A stretch of 64,000 bases of DNA. It comes from Muscardinus avellanarius. Its lineage: Eukaryota > Chordata > Mammalia > Rodentia > Gliridae. Shown piece by piece: positions 4,996 to 54,677 of the stretch. The notes beneath the pieces were generated by a model, which made no database searches, was not told where the DNA came from, and saw only the letters and a program-made list of their open reading frames with translations. The position numbers and the translations under genes were made by a program. Within the stretch, counting starts at the first letter, position 1; each line of letters starts with the position of its first letter. The stretch lies in assembly GCA_963383645.1 (NCBI GenBank), contig OY726574.1:58893394-58957393 (forward strand), read 5' to 3'.

Positions 4996-5362
4996 TATGA
5001 TTTGGGTGAGTCCTCCCTGAAGTCCATATGCTATAGGTTTGGTTCCCAGAGCGGCGTTACTGGGAGGCGATAACCTTTAGGAGGTGGGCCTTACAGGTGC
5101 TATTTGGGTCATTGGAGACACGCCTTTGAAGGCGGCGTGGGATGCCAGCCTGACTTCTTCTTGCTTCCTGGCTTATGATGTAAGTGGTCTGCTCCACCCC
5201 GTGCTCCAGAGAGGCTCGGCATCCTCAACAGAGGTCCAAAGCCATGGGCCCACCCAACTTTAGACTGGAGTTTTCATAACCATGAACAAAAATAAGTATT
5301 TTCTCTTTATGAATTCACTGTCTCAAGTATTTCCTCAGAGCGATGTGACACTGACTAATACA
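4996..5362 (+). mobile_element. LTR, MaLR-like
   Basis: Its form is typical of a solo mammalian LTR: start TATGATTTGGGTGAGTCC, a middle with GGAGGTGGGCCTTACAGGTG, and the terminus TGACACTGACTAATACA. The family assignment to ERVL-MaLR is from overall resemblance. Its 3' part (5174-5304) is copied in inverted form 244 bases downstream. It has no internal viral genes. Confidence 0.65.
5174..5304 (+). repeat. Source arm of the 131-bp inverted repeat
   Basis: LTR sequence containing GCTCCACCCCGTGCTCCAGA, present again in inverted orientation at 5549-5679. Confidence 0.96.
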
Positions 5363-5370
5363 GCTACCAG

Positions 5371-5714
5371 TTTTTTTTGTTGTTGTTTTTTGGGTTTTTT
5401 TGGTGGTACTGGGGTTCCTGGAAGCCCTTCTACCTCCGGGCTACACTCCCAGACCTATTTTTACATTTTTTATTTGGAAACAGGGTCTCCTAAGCCAGCG
5501 CGCGCGGCTGGCTTCAAACCTGCGCGATCCTCCTGTCTCTGCCTCCCAAGAAAATACTTATTTTCGTTCATGGTTATGAAAACTCCAGTCTAAAATTGGG
5601 TGGGCCCATGGCTTTGGACCTCTGTTGAGGATGCCGAGCCTCTCTGGAGCACGGGGTGGAGCAGACCACTTACATCATACGCGGGGATTACAAGCGTGTG
5701 CCACCACGCCCGGC
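5371..5714 (-). mobile_element. B1-dID SINE carrying a 131-bp templated insertion
   Basis: Antisense young-subfamily SINE flanked by the TSD TACAGCTACCAG (5359-5370 and 5715-5726). Its left half is split between CCTCCCAAG (ending 5550) and CGCGGGGATT (from 5680). The intervening bases are the reverse complement of the neighbouring LTR. Removing them restores an uninterrupted SINE. Confidence 0.93.
5549..5679 (-). repeat. Inverted copy of 5174-5304 inside the SINE
   Basis: 129 of 131 bases match the reverse complement of 5174-5304. The junctions show only two bases of microhomology (AG on the left, possibly GC on the right). The arms are separated by 244 bases and could form a long hairpin. 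Confidence 0.96.
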
Positions 5715-5984
5715 TACAGCTACCAGTTTTTTAAAGTTAATGGCAGTGAGCTCTTTCTCCTTTCCTTCTCCTCCTCCTTTTTCCTTCTTTATTAAGTAGG
5801 TTGTCATTTTATGCCATACTGAGACGCAGAGTGTTAGAAAAATACATGCACACAACTCTGGTTGCCTTCCCCACCGGGTCTCCCAACACACACAGAAAGT
5901 CTTTGACATTGGAATTGGCAATTTTGTAAACGTTCCTGGCATTATTTCTACTCTGCGTTCCTTATGACTTCATCTCCCTCTTTC

Positions 5985-21276: not shown

Positions 21277-21403
21277 ATTTTTTTATATTTTTATTTGGAA
21301 ACAGGGTCTCTGAAGCCAGCGAGACTGGCTTCGAACCCACGCCATCCTCCTGTCTCTGCCTCCCAAGCGCGGGGATTACAAGCGTGCGCCACCGCGCCCG
21401 GCA
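21277..21403 (-). mobile_element. Second SINE left half adjoining the first
   Basis: TTTTTATTTGGAAACAGGGT to GTGCGCCACCGCGCCCGGC. It has no right half of its own and begins at the linker just after the TSD of the previous SINE. Confidence 0.88.
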
Positions 21404-29660: not shown

Positions 29661-29872
29661 CCGGGTATGGTGGCACATGCTTGTAATCCCCACACTTGGG
29701 AAGCTGAGACAGGAGGATCGCGCGGGTTCAAAGCCAGCCTCAGCTACTCAGTGAGGCTCTCAGCAACTTAGTGAGACCCTGTTTCCAAATAAAATATAAA
29801 AAAGGTCTGGAAGTATAGCCTGGAGGTAGAAAGCCTCAGGGTTCCACCCCCAGTACCACCAAAAAGTAAAAT
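29661..29872 (+). mobile_element. B1-dID SINE with TSD
   Basis: CCGGGTATGGTGGCACATGC to GTTCCACCCCCAGTACCACC. TSDs AAAATAATGTTTTAG (29646-29660) and AAAATAATGTTATAG (29873-29887). Confidence 0.94.
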
Positions 29873-29945: not shown

Positions 29946-30189
29946 TTTTTTATTTATTTTTATTTATTTATTTATTTATTATTTTTTGGTGGTACTGGGG
30001 GTGGAACCCTGAGGCTTTCTACCTCCGGGCTATACTCCCAGGCCTTTTTTATATTTTATTTGGAAACAGGGTCTCACTAAGTTGCTGAGAGCCTCACTGA
30101 GTAGCTGAGGCTGGCTTTGAACCCGTGCGATCCTCCGGTCTCAGCCTCCCAAGCACGGGGATTACAAGCACGCGCCACCATGCCCGACC
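29946..30189 (-). mobile_element. B1-dID SINE, antisense, with degenerate TSD
   Basis: (TTTA)n-type tail, then GGTGGTACTGGGGGTGGAAC to CGCCACCATGCCCGACC. AAATAATAGGTTTTA upstream resembles AAATAACAGATTTTA downstream. Confidence 0.92.
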
Positions 30190-47100: not shown

Positions 47101-47130
47101 GAAAAAAGAAAGAAAGAAAGAAGCTGATGG

Positions 47131-47330
47131 CATTCTGAGAAACACGAATGACCAACAGTCGCTATCATAGTTCTTCTCGCTCTCGTTTCTTCTCTGTACG
47201 AGCCATGGCTTTCAGGGAAGAGGAACGGGACTGCAGTTCCTTTTCCTCCAGCCCTTCCTGGCTCATCAGTAAGTGGAAGGTAGAAAAAGTTGATAGAACA
47301 TATGCAAATCAAGATGAGAAGTAAACACAG
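47131..47330 (+). repeat. Source of mosaic block 2 and of the 25-bp node
   Basis: The segment at 47131-47219 and the 25-mer at 47306-47330 are both reproduced at 51.9-52.1 kb. It contains an octamer-like ATGCAAAT at 47302-47309. No gene was recognised. Confidence 0.75.
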
Positions 47331-47460
47331 GTCGGTGAGTGTGGGTAGCTTCCCCACTGTTCTGCTAAGAAATACAAATGCCTGCGTGAGCCATAAAAGT
47401 CAAATTGCACGACTCTGTTGTTTCATCATATGACCTACGTTATCATTTATAACTAGTATT

Positions 47461-47602: not shown

Positions 47603-47660
47603 GGGAGCCAAGCATGGTGGCGCACGCTTGTAATCCCACGACTTAAGAGGCTGAAACAGG
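47603..47660 (+). mobile_element. SINE B (B1-dID), 5' part, interrupted by the half-L1
   Basis: GAGCCAAGCATGGTGGCGCA begins a B1-dID copy that continues at 50711 beyond the L1-derived insertion. The last 16 bases are the duplicated target. Confidence 0.85.
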
Positions 47661-48455
47661 GGAGACTTCAGGGAAGATGGCGACCGAGAAAAGCGGGGCT
47701 TAAGAGCCCTGCTAACAACCAATCTCCATTACCACAAAATCAGCGCCTTTCATAGCCAGAAAACACCATCAGCAGAGAAACAAAAAAATCACCAGGCTCC
47801 AGAGTGAAAGCGGACTGAGAACAGAGCTCAGAGCCACAGAGGAGATACACCGGCCTCACGCCCGAGGACGCGGCAGCAGCGCCATACTGCCGGCGGCAGC
47901 GGTGACTTCACCGGACGGCTACAGCAAGCCGAGGTGAGCCGCCGCGGAACAGCCAGGGGGGATCTTTCGGCAAAGGGAGCATCTAAAGCTCCCAGTGGCT
48001 GAGCTCAGCACACGCTGCAAGGACTCAGAGTGGAATTCAAAACCAAGAAGAAATAAGCCAACCTCACGGCCGAGGGCGTAGCAGCAGCGCCATATTGCCA
48101 CCGGCGGCAGCAGCAGCGAACTCAATGAGTCCAGTACAGCTACATCTGCGTACTCAAGAACAGTGAGTCAAATTGCGGGCCACAGAGGAGAAATCCCAGT
48201 ACTGTACTCCCTGGGACTTGACCCAGTGGGGGAGGGGCGGTGGCAGAGATATCACACCATAGGAGAACGTGCAACCTGGCACACCCAACAGTCTAAAGCA
48301 GCCTCTATCGACTCCCTGGGTCGAAGACTCTGTGATACAACCCAGTAAAGGAGTAGTGGGGTCTGAGATACTACAGACTCGAGATCCAGAACACCTTAAG
48401 GGAAGTCATAGTGACCCAAGGGAAGAACCCAGAGAAGGCACAAACTTCCGAAATC
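47661..48455 (+). promoter_or_regulatory. L1 5' UTR / internal promoter region with a duplicated block
   Basis: The region starts at the apparent full-length 5' end. AAGATGGCG at 47674-47682 matches the YY1-type site near position +12 of many mammalian L1s. A block beginning CCTCACG and containing GCAGCAGCGCCATA recurs at 47854-47902 and 48062-48111, a 208-bp period, so the UTR may hold two degenerate monomers. GC and CpG content are high at 47850-47960 and 48060-48120. Promoter activity is inferred from position and family knowledge. Confidence 0.6.
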
Positions 48456-49373
48456 ATGGGAAAGAGGAATAACACTGGAGCAATGAATGCCCACAACCCC
48501 ACAACATCAGAACCCGATAAAACTGAAAATCAGAGATTTCTAGAAGATCAAATCAGGAAAATAACTGTAGAAATAATAGAGGTGCTTCGAAAAGAACTCA
48601 GAGAGAGCCAAAAAGAGATAAAGGATGCAATTAATGAAGTAAAGGCCTCAATTCAAAGCACAAACAACCAATTAGAACACATGGAGAACAGAATCTCGCT
48701 CTTAGAAGATGATCATTCCAAAAATGAACGCATAGTTTCTAATCTAGAAAAAAATATCCAACAGCAGGAATCTGACATTGAAGAAATATGGGCCCATTTT
48801 AAGAGAGCTAACCTAAGAATAATTGGAATAGAGGAGGGAAAAGAAAGTGATACCAAAGGGATCAACAATCTCTTCAAGGAAGTAATAGCAGAAAATTTTC
48901 CAAACATAGAGCAAGAGGTCGATACACAGGTCCAGGAAACTTATAGAACTCCCTTTAGACAGGATTGGAGAAGAGGATCCCCACGCCACATAACTGTCAA
49001 AATGACCAATGTGGAAGCCAAGCAGAGAATCTTAAAGGCAACAAAAACAAAGGGCCAAGTGACATTCAGAGGCAAACCAATTAGAATCACTCCAGACTTC
49101 CCAAACCAAGTCATGAGAGCCAGAAGGGCTTGGAGTAACATATTCCAAACTCTGAAAGAAAACAACTTCCAGCCAAAAATTTCCTACCCAGCAAAACTTT
49201 CTATCAAATTAGATGGAGAAATAAGAAGCTTCCATGACAAACAGAAACTGAAGGAATTTATGTCTTCAAAACCAGCACTAGAGAAAATACTCAAAGAGAT
49301 TAACTACAAAGAAGAAATAGGTAACACACACCAGAACCAGAGAAACAAGAGTTTCCATCCAACAGACAATTAA
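48456..49373 (+). CDS. LINE-1 ORF1p, intact, 305 aa
   Basis: ORF1p is the L1 RNA-binding and nucleic-acid chaperone protein. It trimerises through a coiled coil and coats L1 RNA in the cytoplasmic ribonucleoprotein. The frame is open further upstream to a GTG at 48411, but the first ATG is at 48456 in good context (A at -3, G at +4), giving MGKRNN, the usual L1 ORF1p type of start. Residues about 30-110 form a heptad-rich coiled coil. NLRIIGI at 119-125 opens the RRM, which runs to about 212. The C-terminal domain includes ARRAW and FQPKISYPAKLS at about 222-249. No stop or frameshift interrupts it, and the length is near the usual 300-340 aa. The partner ORF2 is absent downstream. Expression and function are unknown. 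Confidence 0.93.
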   Translation: MGKRNNTGAMNAHNPTTSEPDKTENQRFLEDQIRKITVEIIEVLRKELRESQKEIKDAINEVKASIQSTNNQLEHMENRISLLEDDHSKNERIVSNLEKNIQQQESDIEEIWAHFKRANLRIIGIEEGKESDTKGINNLFKEVIAENFPNIEQEVDTQVQETYRTPFRQDWRRGSPRHITVKMTNVEAKQRILKATKTKGQVTFRGKPIRITPDFPNQVMRARRAWSNIFQTLKENNFQPKISYPAKLSIKLDGEIRSFHDKQKLKEFMSSKPALEKILKEINYKEEIGNTHQNQRNKSFHPTDN

Positions 49374-49569
49374 GATTGGTTATCTGTGGAGATTCATTAT
49401 TTATGTTAGTCTTTTACCTATCTCTAAATTGTATTGTTTGCCTTTATTGTTGTTAATTTTTAGGATTTCTAGTTGGAATATTAATATACCTTCAGATATA
49501 GCATTTGGAAATATTTTATCCAATTCTATTAGTAACTGTTAACTCTGTTTACATTGTCTTTGGATATAC

Positions 49570-50090
49570 AATATGTTTTTTATTTTTTAGGGAGTTTGTA
49601 TACTCTTCTGTTGCCTGTGCCATTGAAATCATATCCAAGATATCACTGCCAGTTTCAATGTTGTGAGGTTTTATGACCCAGATTTTCTTCTAAAAGTTTA
49701 TAGTCTTAAGATTTATATTTAGGTCTTTTATCTATTTTGAGTTAATATTTGTATATGGGATTAGGTAAGGGTCCAATTTTATTCTTTTCCATGTAATTAT
49801 TATTTTTCAACAATATTTAGTTAAAAGATTATTATTTCCACCACCAAATGTTCTTGGAAACCTTGTCAAAAATAACTTGCTAATATAGGGAAGAATTTAG
49901 CTCTAGGCTTTTACTTAACTCCAATGGTTTATATATCTGCCTTTAGAACAGTACTATACTGTCTCAATTATTGTAGCTCTATATGGTTTGAAATCAGAAA
50001 TATATATCTTCTAGCTTTGTTCTTTTTCAAGATCATTTTGGGTATCTAGAGTCCATATTCCATATTAGGATAGATTTTTTTCTGAAAAAT
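49570..50090 (-). mobile_element. Older L1 ORF2-region fragment, antisense inside the half-element
   Basis: The plus strand reads as reverse-complemented L1 ORF2, recognisable by landmarks such as GTTGCCTGTGCCATTGAAAT, TTTTGAGTTAATATTTGTAT and GAAATCAGAAATATATATCT. It is diverged and has no open frame. It begins in mid ORF2 with no poly-T, no 3' UTR and no evident target-site duplication. It is therefore unlikely to be a separate later insertion and was more probably captured by the element that carries ORF1. Confidence 0.75.
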
Positions 50091-50446
50091 AAATATATAA
50101 ATATATGATAGTTTCACCTAAAAAAAATAGAAAAAAAATATTCTCTGGTAAGAAAGAATGCAAAAAGAAATATTGAAATGTTATCTTTAAGTCATCAAAA
50201 GCTTGGTATCAGACAAATGAAACTGTTATGTGAGATTATCATTTTTAATTTTGGATAAATTGCTATAATACTAGATATCAACCACTAAGCCAAGCATGGG
50301 AAGCAGGGATGGGGAGGGAATGGGGTGGGGATCGGGTGGGGGCTGACTGGGCGATGTGTGCATGTATGTCTACAAAAGTTTGTATCCCACTATGATGTAT
50401 GAATACAGTGCACCAATAAAAAAATAAATAAAAATAAAGTACAAAT

Positions 50447-50704
50447 ATAATACCCAACATGCTGGTATAATTCTTATCCAGTTTACCCAGTTGTTCGCAC
50501 CATATGTGATGGCAGTAGATTTGTAAAATCAAGAAACCAAAATAAAAGGTGGGCATCGTGTTATATGAACCTGTAATCCTACTACTTAGAAGGCTGAGAC
50601 AGAAGGATAACCTCAGCAACTTAGCGATACTCTCAGTAACCTAGTGAGACCCTATTTCAAAATAAAAAATAAATAAATAAAAAGGGCTGGGGGAGTAAAC
50701 TGAG
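50447..50704 (+). other. 3' transduced flank of the half-L1
   Basis: After the L1 tail (CACCAATAAAAAAATAAAT) come 258 bases of unrelated sequence, including a partial SINE (about 50545-50700). They end in AAAAAAAA directly before the downstream target-site duplication. AATAAATAAATAAA at about 50668-50681 lies some 25 bases before that A-run, the spacing of a used polyadenylation signal. This is the expected form of read-through transcription followed by retrotransposition. Confidence 0.75.
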
Positions 50705-50710
50705 AAAAAA

Positions 50711-50902
50711 AAGAGGCTGAGACAGGAGGATCGCACAGGTTCGAAGCCAGCCTCAGCTACTTAGTGAGCCTCTCAGAAACTTAGTGAGACCCTGTTTCCA
50801 AATAAAATAGAAAATATGAAATAGGTCTGGGAGTGTATCCCAGAAATGGAAAGCTGGGACTGGTTCCATCCCCAGTACCACAAAACAAATAAAAAATTAA
50901 AA
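50711..50902 (+). mobile_element. SINE B (B1-dID), 3' part
   Basis: The copy resumes with AAGAGGCTGAGACAGG and continues through GATCGCACAGGTTCGAAGCC to a right half ending TTCCATCCCCAGTACC and an A-rich tail. Joined to 47603-47660 it makes one complete SINE. Confidence 0.85.
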
Positions 50903-51236: not shown

Positions 51237-51740
51237 AAAATGAAACTAATATTCTACAGCATTAAGATGAATGATAAAATTCATGCTAATAATATAAAAT
51301 TAAAAGTTTTATTTACTTAGAAAAATATTAGCTAGTAAGCTTCAAATATCATCATAAGTCAAGAGAGGAGACCAACACCAGAAAAGAGACAGTCTTCTCT
51401 GTAGGACCTCTCGTGACCTCTGCCCGGCGTTTTGAACGGGACCACACATTTCCATTTTGCACTGGACTCTGTAAAGTACAGCTGCCCTGCCAGTAGCACC
51501 CTCAGTTGTGACAGGCATCAGCGTCTCCAGACTTTGCCAGATGCCTCTGGGGAGGCGAGGGTGTCGGACAGACTGAACCACCTCCGGTTGAGAACGACTG
51601 CCCTGGACAGTGTGAAGACGGCCACGACCTCAAAGTACCGTGGCTCTGCAAGGTCCGACAGCGTGACAGGATACTAAGACTTGAGATCTTTTCTTGAGAG
51701 CCTGTGCCCCCACCCCAGGTTTCCACGCAGGGAAAGAGCT
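51237..51740. other. Unassigned sequence
   Basis: No recognised exon or repeat between the SINE and the mosaic. Confidence 0.4.
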
Positions 51741-51890
51741 AAATATAGTGTCTTTACATCTCTTAAAATAGAATTCAAAGTCAATATACTAATTATGGAT
51801 TGGACTCAGAAACTTATATTTAAATTATTATTATTATTTGGGGCTGGTACCAGGGATTGAGCCTATGTGTATTCTATGTCTAAGTTATAC
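51741..51890 (-). repeat. Mosaic block 1: inverted copy of 53199-53348
   Basis: These 150 bases are the reverse complement of 53199-53348 with about seven differences. The copied interval includes a SINE right-half end plus its non-repeat flank, so it is a specific copy and not just two members of a repeat family. Confidence 0.92.
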
Positions 51891-51912
51891 TTATATAAAC
51901 TTATATAAAGAA

Positions 51913-51937
51913 CTGTGTTTACTTCTCATCTTGATTT
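51913..51937 (-). repeat. Mosaic node: 25-bp inverted copy of 47306-47330
   Basis: The reverse complement matches 25/25 bases, including GATGAGAAGTAAACACAG. The same segment occurs in direct orientation at 52038-52060 and in part as a fold-back at 52184-52211. Confidence 0.88.
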
Positions 51938-51939
51938 CT

Positions 51940-52028
51940 CATTCTGAGAAACACGAATGACCAACAGTCACTATCATAGCTCTTCTCGCTCCCGCTTCTT
52001 CTCTGTACGAGCCATGGCTTTCAGTGAA
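51940..52028 (+). repeat. Mosaic block 2: direct copy of 47131-47219
   Basis: 84 of 89 bases match, starting CATTCTGAGAAACACGAATG. Three of the five differences are C in this copy where the upstream copy has T. An undescribed dispersed repeat could also explain two copies; a genome search would decide. Confidence 0.85.
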
Positions 52029-52037
52029 CGGAAAGGG

Positions 52038-52060
52038 ATCAAGATGAGAAGTAAACACAG
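52038..52060 (+). repeat. Mosaic node: direct copy of 47308-47330
   Basis: 23 bases match exactly. About 88 bases that separate the two parts in the upstream copy (47220-47307) are reduced to 9 here. Confidence 0.88.
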
Positions 52061-52067
52061 CTTATAG

Positions 52068-52183
52068 TGGCAGAATGGCCACTCTTCGGACACCAGGAGT
52101 GGTTTCATCCCATTTCTTCATATTGAAGTCTCAGTCATTCAGTCGTCATAGAACTCACAACCAGAACCACACAAAAGGGCTGG
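52068..52183 (-). repeat. Mosaic block 3: inverted copy of 54225-54340, 116/116 identical
   Basis: The reverse complement of 54225-54340 matches at every base (TGGCAGAATGGCCACTCTTC to CACACAAAAGGGCTGG). Homology ends abruptly on both sides. Confidence 0.97.
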
Positions 52184-52250
52184 TTACTTCTCATATGAGA
52201 AGTAAAAACAGCCATTATATAAGTCATACTTATATAAACTTATATATAAG
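52184..52250. repeat. Mosaic fold-back and direct copy of 51882-51909
   Basis: 52184-52205 is a perfect 22-bp palindrome centred on CATATG. Each half is part of the 25-bp node. 52221-52248 then repeats 51882-51909 (CATACTTATATAAACTTATA) with one or two changes and runs into the AT array. Confidence 0.8.
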
Positions 52251-52440
52251 ATATATATATCTTAAATTATTATATATATATCTTATTATTATTACTTATA
52301 ATAATATATTATATATATTATATATAAAATATATATAATATAATATATATAATATATGTTTTTATATATAATATATAATATATAATATATAATATATAAT
52401 ATATAATAATATATATATCTTATTATATATATATATCTTT
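52206..52440. repeat. AT-rich (TA)n array with TATATCTTAT variants
   Basis: A run of TATATA, ATATAATATA and TATATATCTTATTAT units immediately downstream of the mosaic. It is strongly self-complementary and is a plausible site of replication stalling. Confidence 0.95.
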
Positions 52441-53052: not shown

Positions 53053-53265
53053 AGCTGGGTATAGTGGCATCCATCTGTAATCTCAGAACTTGGAAGGCTT
53101 AGAGAAGAAAATCACAGGTTCAAGACCAGTCTCAGTAACCCAATAAGATTCTCAGCAACTAAACAAGATCCGGTTTCAAAAATAAAAAATAGCTGGGGGT
53201 ATAACTTAGACATAGAATACGCATAGGCTCAATCCCTGGTACCAGCCAAAAATAATAATAATAAT
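53053..53265 (+). mobile_element. B1-dID SINE; 3' end copied into the mosaic
   Basis: GCTGGGTATAGTGGCATCCA to GCTCAATCCCTGGTACC. Its terminal 50 bases and the following flank (to 53348) recur in inverted form at 51741-51890. Confidence 0.9.
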
Positions 53266-53370
53266 TTAAATATAAATTTCTGAGTCCAATCCATAATTAA
53301 TATATTGACTTTGAATTATATTTTAAGAGATGTAAAGACACTATATTTTACTTCATATATATACATATAT

Positions 53371-53743: not shown

Positions 53744-54677
53744 TTTATTTTACCATATACAAAATGCTTCTAAGTCATATTATAAAAATACAAGCCTTGA
53801 GCCAAAACGAAAATTGATTCCATAATATACTTGCCTTGATTCTTTTCCTTCTGTCTTTGAAATGTGTAACAATACAGCTTTCCAAAAGGTGGAACCAAGA
53901 CAGTTGTTGCTGTTTCTCCATTTGACCCAGATGGCTAGAGGACACCCAGCCCCCTGAGCACGTCTTTGGAGGGGGCGGCCCTGCATGCCTGTGTTGTGTT
54001 TTCTGCCTCATTCCTTCTTCAACCTTGACTTCTCGTCCACATAAGAGCCGTGCTCATGAGCAAACTCCAGGCAGGGGAACGTAGCTCCTTGGGTCCTCAG
54101 TGCAGATCCGTGGAGGAGAGGGGGCTCAGAGGTGTGAGTCTGCCTTCTGCCCTGTTTTGGAGGGTTCTGCCAGCTCGTCCATCCCGCCTACCTACCACAG
54201 CAGGGCTCATCTGCCTAAGGTTAGCCAGCCCTTTTGTGTGGTTCTGGTTGTGAGTTCTATGACGACTGAATGACTGAGACTTCAATATGAAGAAATGGGA
54301 TGAAACCACTCCTGGTGTCCGAAGAGTGGCCATTCTGCCAAGCTGTCAATGACAGAAGGTATATTCTTCTAGACAGGGTATGCTCTAACCTGGGCGCCAG
54401 GGCCCCAGGTAGGCAGCAGGATTAGAATTGCCTCTTGGTTTTTTATTTTAATGGGATAACTAGAAGGTAAAAAATAAAGATGGCCAGTGTTCATTCATTC
54501 ATTTTTTTCATTCATACATGTGCTAACCATTTGTAAGTACCAAGAGGACGAACACCAGGGCAGGAGTGTGAAGAAGTGAGCATGCTGCCTGCCTGCTGCG
54601 CCTGCTCTTTGAAGTTCAGTCAGTACTGCTCAGCTCAACAGCACACAGAAGCGAGAGAGAAATTTGGGGGGGGGGGT
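53744..54677. other. Unassigned; includes the source of mosaic block 3
   Basis: No exon recognised. The open frames at 53.8-54.3 kb lack domain features. Confidence 0.4.
54225..54340 (+). repeat. Source of mosaic block 3
   Basis: Non-repetitive sequence present in inverted form at 52068-52183 without a mismatch. No coding exon was recognised here. Confidence 0.9.

Follow-up and report, generated by a model that had tools for sequence, protein, structure and literature searches.

A patchwork of nearby copies in both orientations: a probable scar of serial template switching beside AT-rich DNA

Most descriptions of multi-template scars come from disease alleles, tumors, and cultured cells. In people, germline insertions drawn from up to five templates are known, with at least 1 bp of microhomology reported at 138 of 155 and 135 of 148 resolvable junctions (PMC8421209). 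The MM-BIR insertions described from human cells have median sizes of 155–234 bp, return frequently to one template, and switch at inverted repeats; their junctions comprise overlaps (50.9%), blunt joins (11.4%), and insertions or gaps (37.7%) (PMC13065848). The template switches catalogued in great apes are enriched in AT-rich motifs (PMC7954356).

We analyzed a patch of this kind in a window of 64,000 nucleotides (the whole stretch of DNA under study) from a mammal-like genome. The patch exemplifies a known kind of mutation in an unusually elaborate and readable form. It is old enough to carry substitutions and its templates are still adjacent, so that orientations, junctions, and some of the order remain legible. 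A literature search found no report of this locus among the matches listed, an absence that is not proof.

A mosaic of local copies in both orientations

Sequence comparison confirmed that the ~470-bp stretch from 51741 to 52211 is a mosaic of nearby copies, in both orientations, from ~1.3–4.8 kb away (Table 1). An earlier note on this DNA had listed the blocks with their coordinates, and the list held to within a few bases; it had also placed a 25-bp node at the block borders, and the node indeed recurs there in the orientations minus, plus, minus, plus. Two bases stand between blocks 2 and 3, and beyond its core the block 3 match continues from 47219 to 47228 with denser differences. Blocks 3 and 4 had been described as separate copies. 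Both matches are present, but their 47.1-kb and 47.3-kb sources are co-linear, and a gapped alignment runs from 47131 to ~47228, skips ~79 bp, and continues to 47330. Block 4 may thus be block 3 continued past the skip, or another visit to the node. Positions 51913–51935 and 52038–52060 form an inverted repeat (23/23, 102 bp apart), and the outer ends of the patch (51864–51929 and 52195–52259) form an imperfect one (46/66). The last segment had been read as a direct copy of 51882–51909; a match does exist (26/27, to 51881–51907), but 52220–52246 may be the template and not the copy.

Table 1. Coordinates of the patch, its templates, and the second templated insertion (positions within the window)
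Feature	Position	Strand	Description
Block 1	51741–51890	−	Inverted 53199–53348, 144/150; 3' part of the SINE at ~53.05–53.26 kb plus its own 3' flank
Filler F	51887–51909	+	22/23 to 52226–52248; ATAC shared with the end of block 1; either copied from the right flank or its template
Block 2 (node)	51910–51937	−	Inverted 47306–47333, 27/28; core 51913–51937 = 47306–47330, 25/25
Block 3	51940–52037	+	Direct 47131–47228, 89/98; core 51940–52028 = 47131–47219, 84/89
Block 4 (node)	52038–52060	+	Direct 47308–47330, 23/23
Junction bases, blocks 4/5	52061–52067		CTT may come from the block 5 template (ACAGCTT), plus 5 inserted bases
Block 5	52068–52183	−	Inverted 54225–54340, 116/116
Palindrome, 22 bp, perfect	52184–52205		Arms are node letters: node minus 52184–52194 (11/11), node plus 52195–52211 (16/17)
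27-bp near-repeat of 51881–51907	52220–52246	+	26/27; at the AT-array edge; either a copy or the original flank
(TA)n-rich array adjoining the patch	52241–52436
Template site of blocks 2, 3, 4 and the node	47131–47333	+
Template of block 1	53199–53348	+
Template of block 5	54225–54340	+
Second templated insertion	5549–5679	−	Inverted copy (129/131) of 5174–5304 inside a SINE; from the all-against-all scan

We scored the patch with a parse in which it is copied from either strand of its neighborhood and each switch is penalized, expressed as log-odds over 51700–52260. The parse gave eight templated segments in the patch, four per strand; this count excludes an 11-nt segment (51730–51740, 10/11) that arises because the true flank was barred as a template. 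With templates within 4.5 kb, the log-odds of the patch was 334.8, versus 0.0–210.0 in 41 control segments of equal length placed every 1.5 kb (the start at 52000 was omitted because it overlaps the patch). Eight of the 41 controls scored 0, and the highest were SINE-rich; the control starting at 5500, which scored 157.9, holds the second templated insertion. With templates within 5 kb, the patch scored 409.7 versus at most 0.8 in 60 Markov shuffles. The all-against-all scan of the window returned 512 pairs at least 88% identical, simple sequence excluded, 22 of them low-copy on both sides; the patch accounts for seven of the 22, among them three of the best four. An inverted SINE pair (29662–29869 and 29979–30186, ~110 bp apart, 195/208 identical) scored highest in the scan and may reflect either homogenization or a recent pair of insertions.

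BLAST E-values inside the window were 6e-59 for block 1, 5e-49 for block 5, 2e-31 for block 3, 6e-6 for block 2, and 2e-4 for block 4. Further matches of blocks 2–5 below E = 1 were absent from the 64-kb window, versus 44 alignment rows from one query of the local SINE family; block 1 matched elsewhere in the window only via its SINE end, and weakly. This evidence from inside the window weakens the dispersed-repeat reading, which we set aside, and the misassembly reading is likewise weakened.

The seven internal junctions are of mixed type. One has four exact bases of microhomology (9/10 with a mismatch), two are blunt, and four carry 2, 5, 7, and 13 inserted bases supplied by neither template; microhomology of at least 4 arises at ~2% of random joins. 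At the block 4/5 junction, ACAGCTT directly precedes the block in the block 5 template, and the patch has ACAGCTT with five inserted bases. A fit of this type was equalled by 20 of 20,000 random templates. Given this match, we dropped a reading by eye of 52061–52067 as a copy of filler F.

Template and copy are both still present for every block, the templates having been retained. Block 1 joins the 3' part of a SINE to the 3' flank of that same SINE copy, and the SINE is continuous at 53 kb; the patch is therefore the copy. For blocks 2–5 the patch is presumably the copy as well: the templates lie in uninterrupted stretches, and the copies are pieces. If the right flank is original, filler F is templated and its microhomology to block 1 amounts to the four exact bases. 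If the left is original, or if 51908–52219 is a later insert with a 27-bp duplication, it is instead the 10 bases common with block 1 that are explained. A polarity rule, by which templates on the right are inverted and those on the left direct, was rejected: it fits the three long blocks and fails for block 2, and the blocks are too few for it to mean much. The template of block 3 starts (47131) within ~2 bp of where a possible target-site duplication, AAGCAGAAGGCA / AAGCTGATGGCA (47120–47131, by eye), ends; the duplication would belong to the SINE that starts at ~46899.

Surroundings of the patch and a second insertion

The patch is strongly self-complementary (51910–52059, z = −6.50; 52184–52260, z = −6.46). 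At the flank edge (52212–52260), a 10-bp hairpin with a 3-base loop is predicted (z = −3.65; 1 of 200 shuffles was as good). The TA array (52270–52410) folded like its shuffles (z = 0.38), and the left flank gave z = −0.25. The neighboring (TA)n array, which the earlier note had counted toward template switching, is thus unremarkable in its folding; it is the sequence immediately before the array that folds well. Of the six template edges, all but those at 47131 and 53199 were folded (47.3, 53.3, 54.3, and 54.2 kb), and none of these four was unusual (z = −0.33, −0.58, −0.64, and −0.39, respectively), so that we abandoned structure as the reason for template choice. Because the flank edge folds well and the folded template edges do not, the insertion site, rather than the templates, appears to have a fragile look in these predictions, which concern the present-day sequence only.

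The left flank at 51440–51610 resembles, on the minus strand, an aged hAT fragment of the MER5A type. An L1 lies at 47661–50710 and contains an open frame of 338 codons (48357–49373) with the Pfam domains Transposase_22 and Tnp_22_dsRBD. Among the open reading frames, none of ORF2 size lies downstream of it, and the kilobase after it is presumably L1 sequence on the reverse strand. The L1 is bracketed by AAGAGGCTGARACAGG (47645–47660 and 50711–50726), which is also SINE consensus. Its boundaries are therefore uncertain, and for this reason the L1 (47.7–50.7 kb) was dropped as a dating marker. The earlier note had taken the host for a sciurid; the SINE type would be in keeping with squirrel repeats, and the L1 ORF1 tells no more than that the genome contains L1s. 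No Rfam family reached its gathering score anywhere in the window.

The SINE that hosts the second templated insertion is on the minus strand and has an 18-bp target-site duplication (5359–5376 and 5715–5732); the insertion lies 35 bp from its 5' end. Twenty-one copies in the window (query included) align through the site without the insert; since they were chosen as unbroken alignments, they establish the uninterrupted form and do not count the rarity of inserts. Compared to the SINE copy at 21402–21280, in which CCCCGCG is followed directly by CTTGGGAGG, the insertion removes nothing. CT provides a 2-bp microhomology on one side, and there is none on the other. The insertion is a simple case of the same kind of event as the patch, relatively dated in that it is younger than its host SINE. 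Thus, the patch is not the only place where pieces of 100–150 bp were copied. SINE copies can serve as ready-made references for the empty site and so provide a way to count such events genome-wide without an outgroup.

Mechanism and number of episodes

The copies, their orientations, the letters at the junctions, and the retained templates are all read directly from the DNA. The patch is most likely a mutation scar and not a functional element, and its presence in the assembly, together with the substitutions since, suggests a germline origin. Probably, it is the scar of serial template switching in copying repair or replication beside AT-rich DNA (MMBIR or Pol-theta-like). The event would have started with a break or a stalled fork beside the hairpin-forming AT-rich sequence (from ~52212). 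A 3' DNA end would have been extended on successive nearby templates, at 53.2 kb, in the local AT flank, and at 47.3, 47.1, and 54.3 kb, with returns to the 25-bp node, either at 47.3 kb or in newly made copies. The end would finally have been joined to the other side, adding ~470 bp of new sequence and leaving the templates in place. We infer the order of the switches, that the pieces were copied and not captured as fragments, that one or two episodes made most of the switches, and that the enzymes were those of BIR-type synthesis, Pol theta, or both of these.

Template switching is best supported because the pieces are all local and copied, lie in both orientations, and revisit the node, and because the junction mix is like that of MM-BIR in human cells. 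The second, simple case in the window, for which the uninterrupted site is known and no loss of target is visible, also speaks for it. Against it, microhomology is clear at only one of the seven internal junctions and the folded template edges (4/6) are not unusual. Of the MMBIR/FoSTeS-type reading that the earlier note had proposed, template switching coupled to replication or repair thus stands as the best explanation of the patch, but the microhomology expected under MMBIR/FoSTeS is clear at that one junction only.

End-joining capture of short fragments at a double-strand break, the fragments being flaps or extrachromosomal single strands of which some had previously folded back, would account for junctions that are blunt or bear inserts. 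In yeast, captured replication intermediates or transformed single strands are reported to give two opposite-orientation inserts from one locus (PMC11724301). We nevertheless regard capture as unlikely: the distant inserts described in yeast are genome-wide in origin (PMC11724301), whereas the templates here lie within ~5 kb and are retained, and the co-linearity of blocks 3 and 4 and the palindrome point to synthesis, although fold-back synthesis on a captured strand would also yield a palindrome. The size of the blocks makes Pol-theta end joining alone distinctly doubtful. It would explain the 11–28-nt pieces, the inserted bases of unknown origin, and the fold-back palindrome, and comparable molecular patchworks have been described (PMC12426944). 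However, its templated insertions, which derive from the flanks of the break, are given there as generally <25 bp (PMC12426944), whereas three blocks of the patch measure 98, 116, and 150 bp and originate 1.3–4.8 kb away. By size, the fit is limited to the node pieces and filler F, and Pol-theta end joining may have made the short node pieces.

The perfect 23-bp inverted repeat (51913–51935 and 52038–52060) could be taken for the terminal inverted repeats of a transposable or foldback element, such as an inverted-repeat DNA transposon or MITE, a reading that the imperfect outer repeat (46/66) would also suit. Such an element is scarcely credible: it has no further copy within 64 kb, the copy at 47131–47330 has one terminus only, a target-site duplication was not seen by eye beside 51913 and 52060, and blocks 1 and 5 derive from local DNA on the other side. 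An assembly artefact might be suspected from the 116/116 block and the adjoining (TA)n array, but is very unlikely given that blocks 1 and 3 carry 6 and 5 substitutions relative to their templates and that four junctions hold bases from neither template, unlike a simple mis-join. We also rejected a spliced retrocopy, since by eye the ~79-bp skip is without GT-AG ends and poly(A) is absent.

The unequal identities of the blocks had been taken as a sign of more than one event. Without trimming, blocks 1, 3, and 5 differ from their templates at 6/150, 5/89, and 1/119 positions (three-block permutation, p = 0.161); with the junction bases trimmed, they differ at 6/146, 4/85, and 0/116 (p = 0.069), a total of 10 differences in 347 bases. 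Against a single event, block 5 shows less divergence than do blocks 1 and 3 together (10 in 231), and uncorrected pairwise Fisher tests on the trimmed blocks gave p = 0.036 for block 5 versus block 1 and p = 0.031 versus block 3, but the permutation values leave this evidence weak. The identity differences hint, at most, at two episodes.

More than one episode, a variant that overlaps with serial template switching as set out above, is quite possible, if short of probable. Block 1 would have come first, as a simple inverted insertion beside the AT array, and a 312-bp composite (51908–52219) would later have entered that junction, duplicating 27 bp (51881–51907 and 52220–52246). The 27-bp direct repeat (26/27) brackets exactly 51908–52219, including 10 bp of block 1, and filler F would thus be explained without a separate jump. 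The block identities are somewhat unequal, and at 5.5 kb there is a simple insertion that resembles block 1 in type. However, inside the supposed second insert, block 3 and block 5 are as unequal as block 1 and block 5; divergence therefore fails to sort the blocks into this order, and the untrimmed differences are not significant.

An improbable version of template switching compresses everything into one chromoanasynthesis-like germline episode, with seven or more switches between four template sites within a few kb. The 25-bp node would be its hub, visited four times in strictly alternating orientation, with the growing end tethered to one site and snapping between strands. If this were true, then together with the second inverted insertion 46 kb away it would make kilobase-range template switching of 100–150 bp much commoner in this lineage than the great-ape median of 12 bp implies.

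Comparison with described systems

The patch combines retained templates with several switches, nearby templates, and mixed orientation, as in MMBIR/FoSTeS, whose other marks include a need for POLD3, PIF1, and similar BIR factors. For class 1 templated sequence insertion polymorphisms (TSIPs) or L1-mediated insertion, we found no poly(A) in the patch by eye, and the flanking repeat (26/27) encloses 51908–52219 and not the whole patch. Class 2 TSIPs, as described, resemble the patch in having no poly(A) or target-site duplication and in their NHEJ-like junctions (PMC5110952). Their template is distant and a cDNA origin has been proposed for them (PMC5110952), whereas the patch has several local templates, all within ~5 kb, and no sign of splicing or poly(A), the ~79-bp skip being without GT-AG ends by eye.

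The foldback and distant inverted insertions reported in yeast are alike in that the inserts are inverted and templated and that one locus is used twice in opposite orientation. Among them, the local foldbacks are mostly <14 bp (2 to about 150) and the distant ones are genome-wide (PMC11724301), whereas the patch templates are local. The short-range template switches of great apes (Walker et al. 2021, PMC7954356) share the local copies and the AT-rich surroundings. In the gold-standard set described there, the copied length has a median of 12 and a maximum of 128, whereas the patch has eight segments, the longest of 150 bp; the 131-bp insertion at 5.5 kb just exceeds that maximum.

Complex germline microhomology-mediated templated insertions (MMB-TIs; Osia et al. 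2021, PMC8421209) are alike in their several templates, both orientations, and retained templates. As reported, the tool used there calls inverted copies with a template within 100 bp and most junctions have microhomology (PMC8421209), whereas the patch draws on 1.3–4.8 kb, mostly without microhomology. The patches of mitotic MM-BIR and chromoanasynthesis were described in cultured cells, where they arose at fused telomeres and at subtelomeric breaks that had been induced, and their inserts were drawn from every chromosome (PMC13065848); here the templates are local and the scar lies in a genome assembly. Yet in insert sizes, junction mix, template revisits, and switching at inverted repeats, these patches and ours are alike (PMC13065848).
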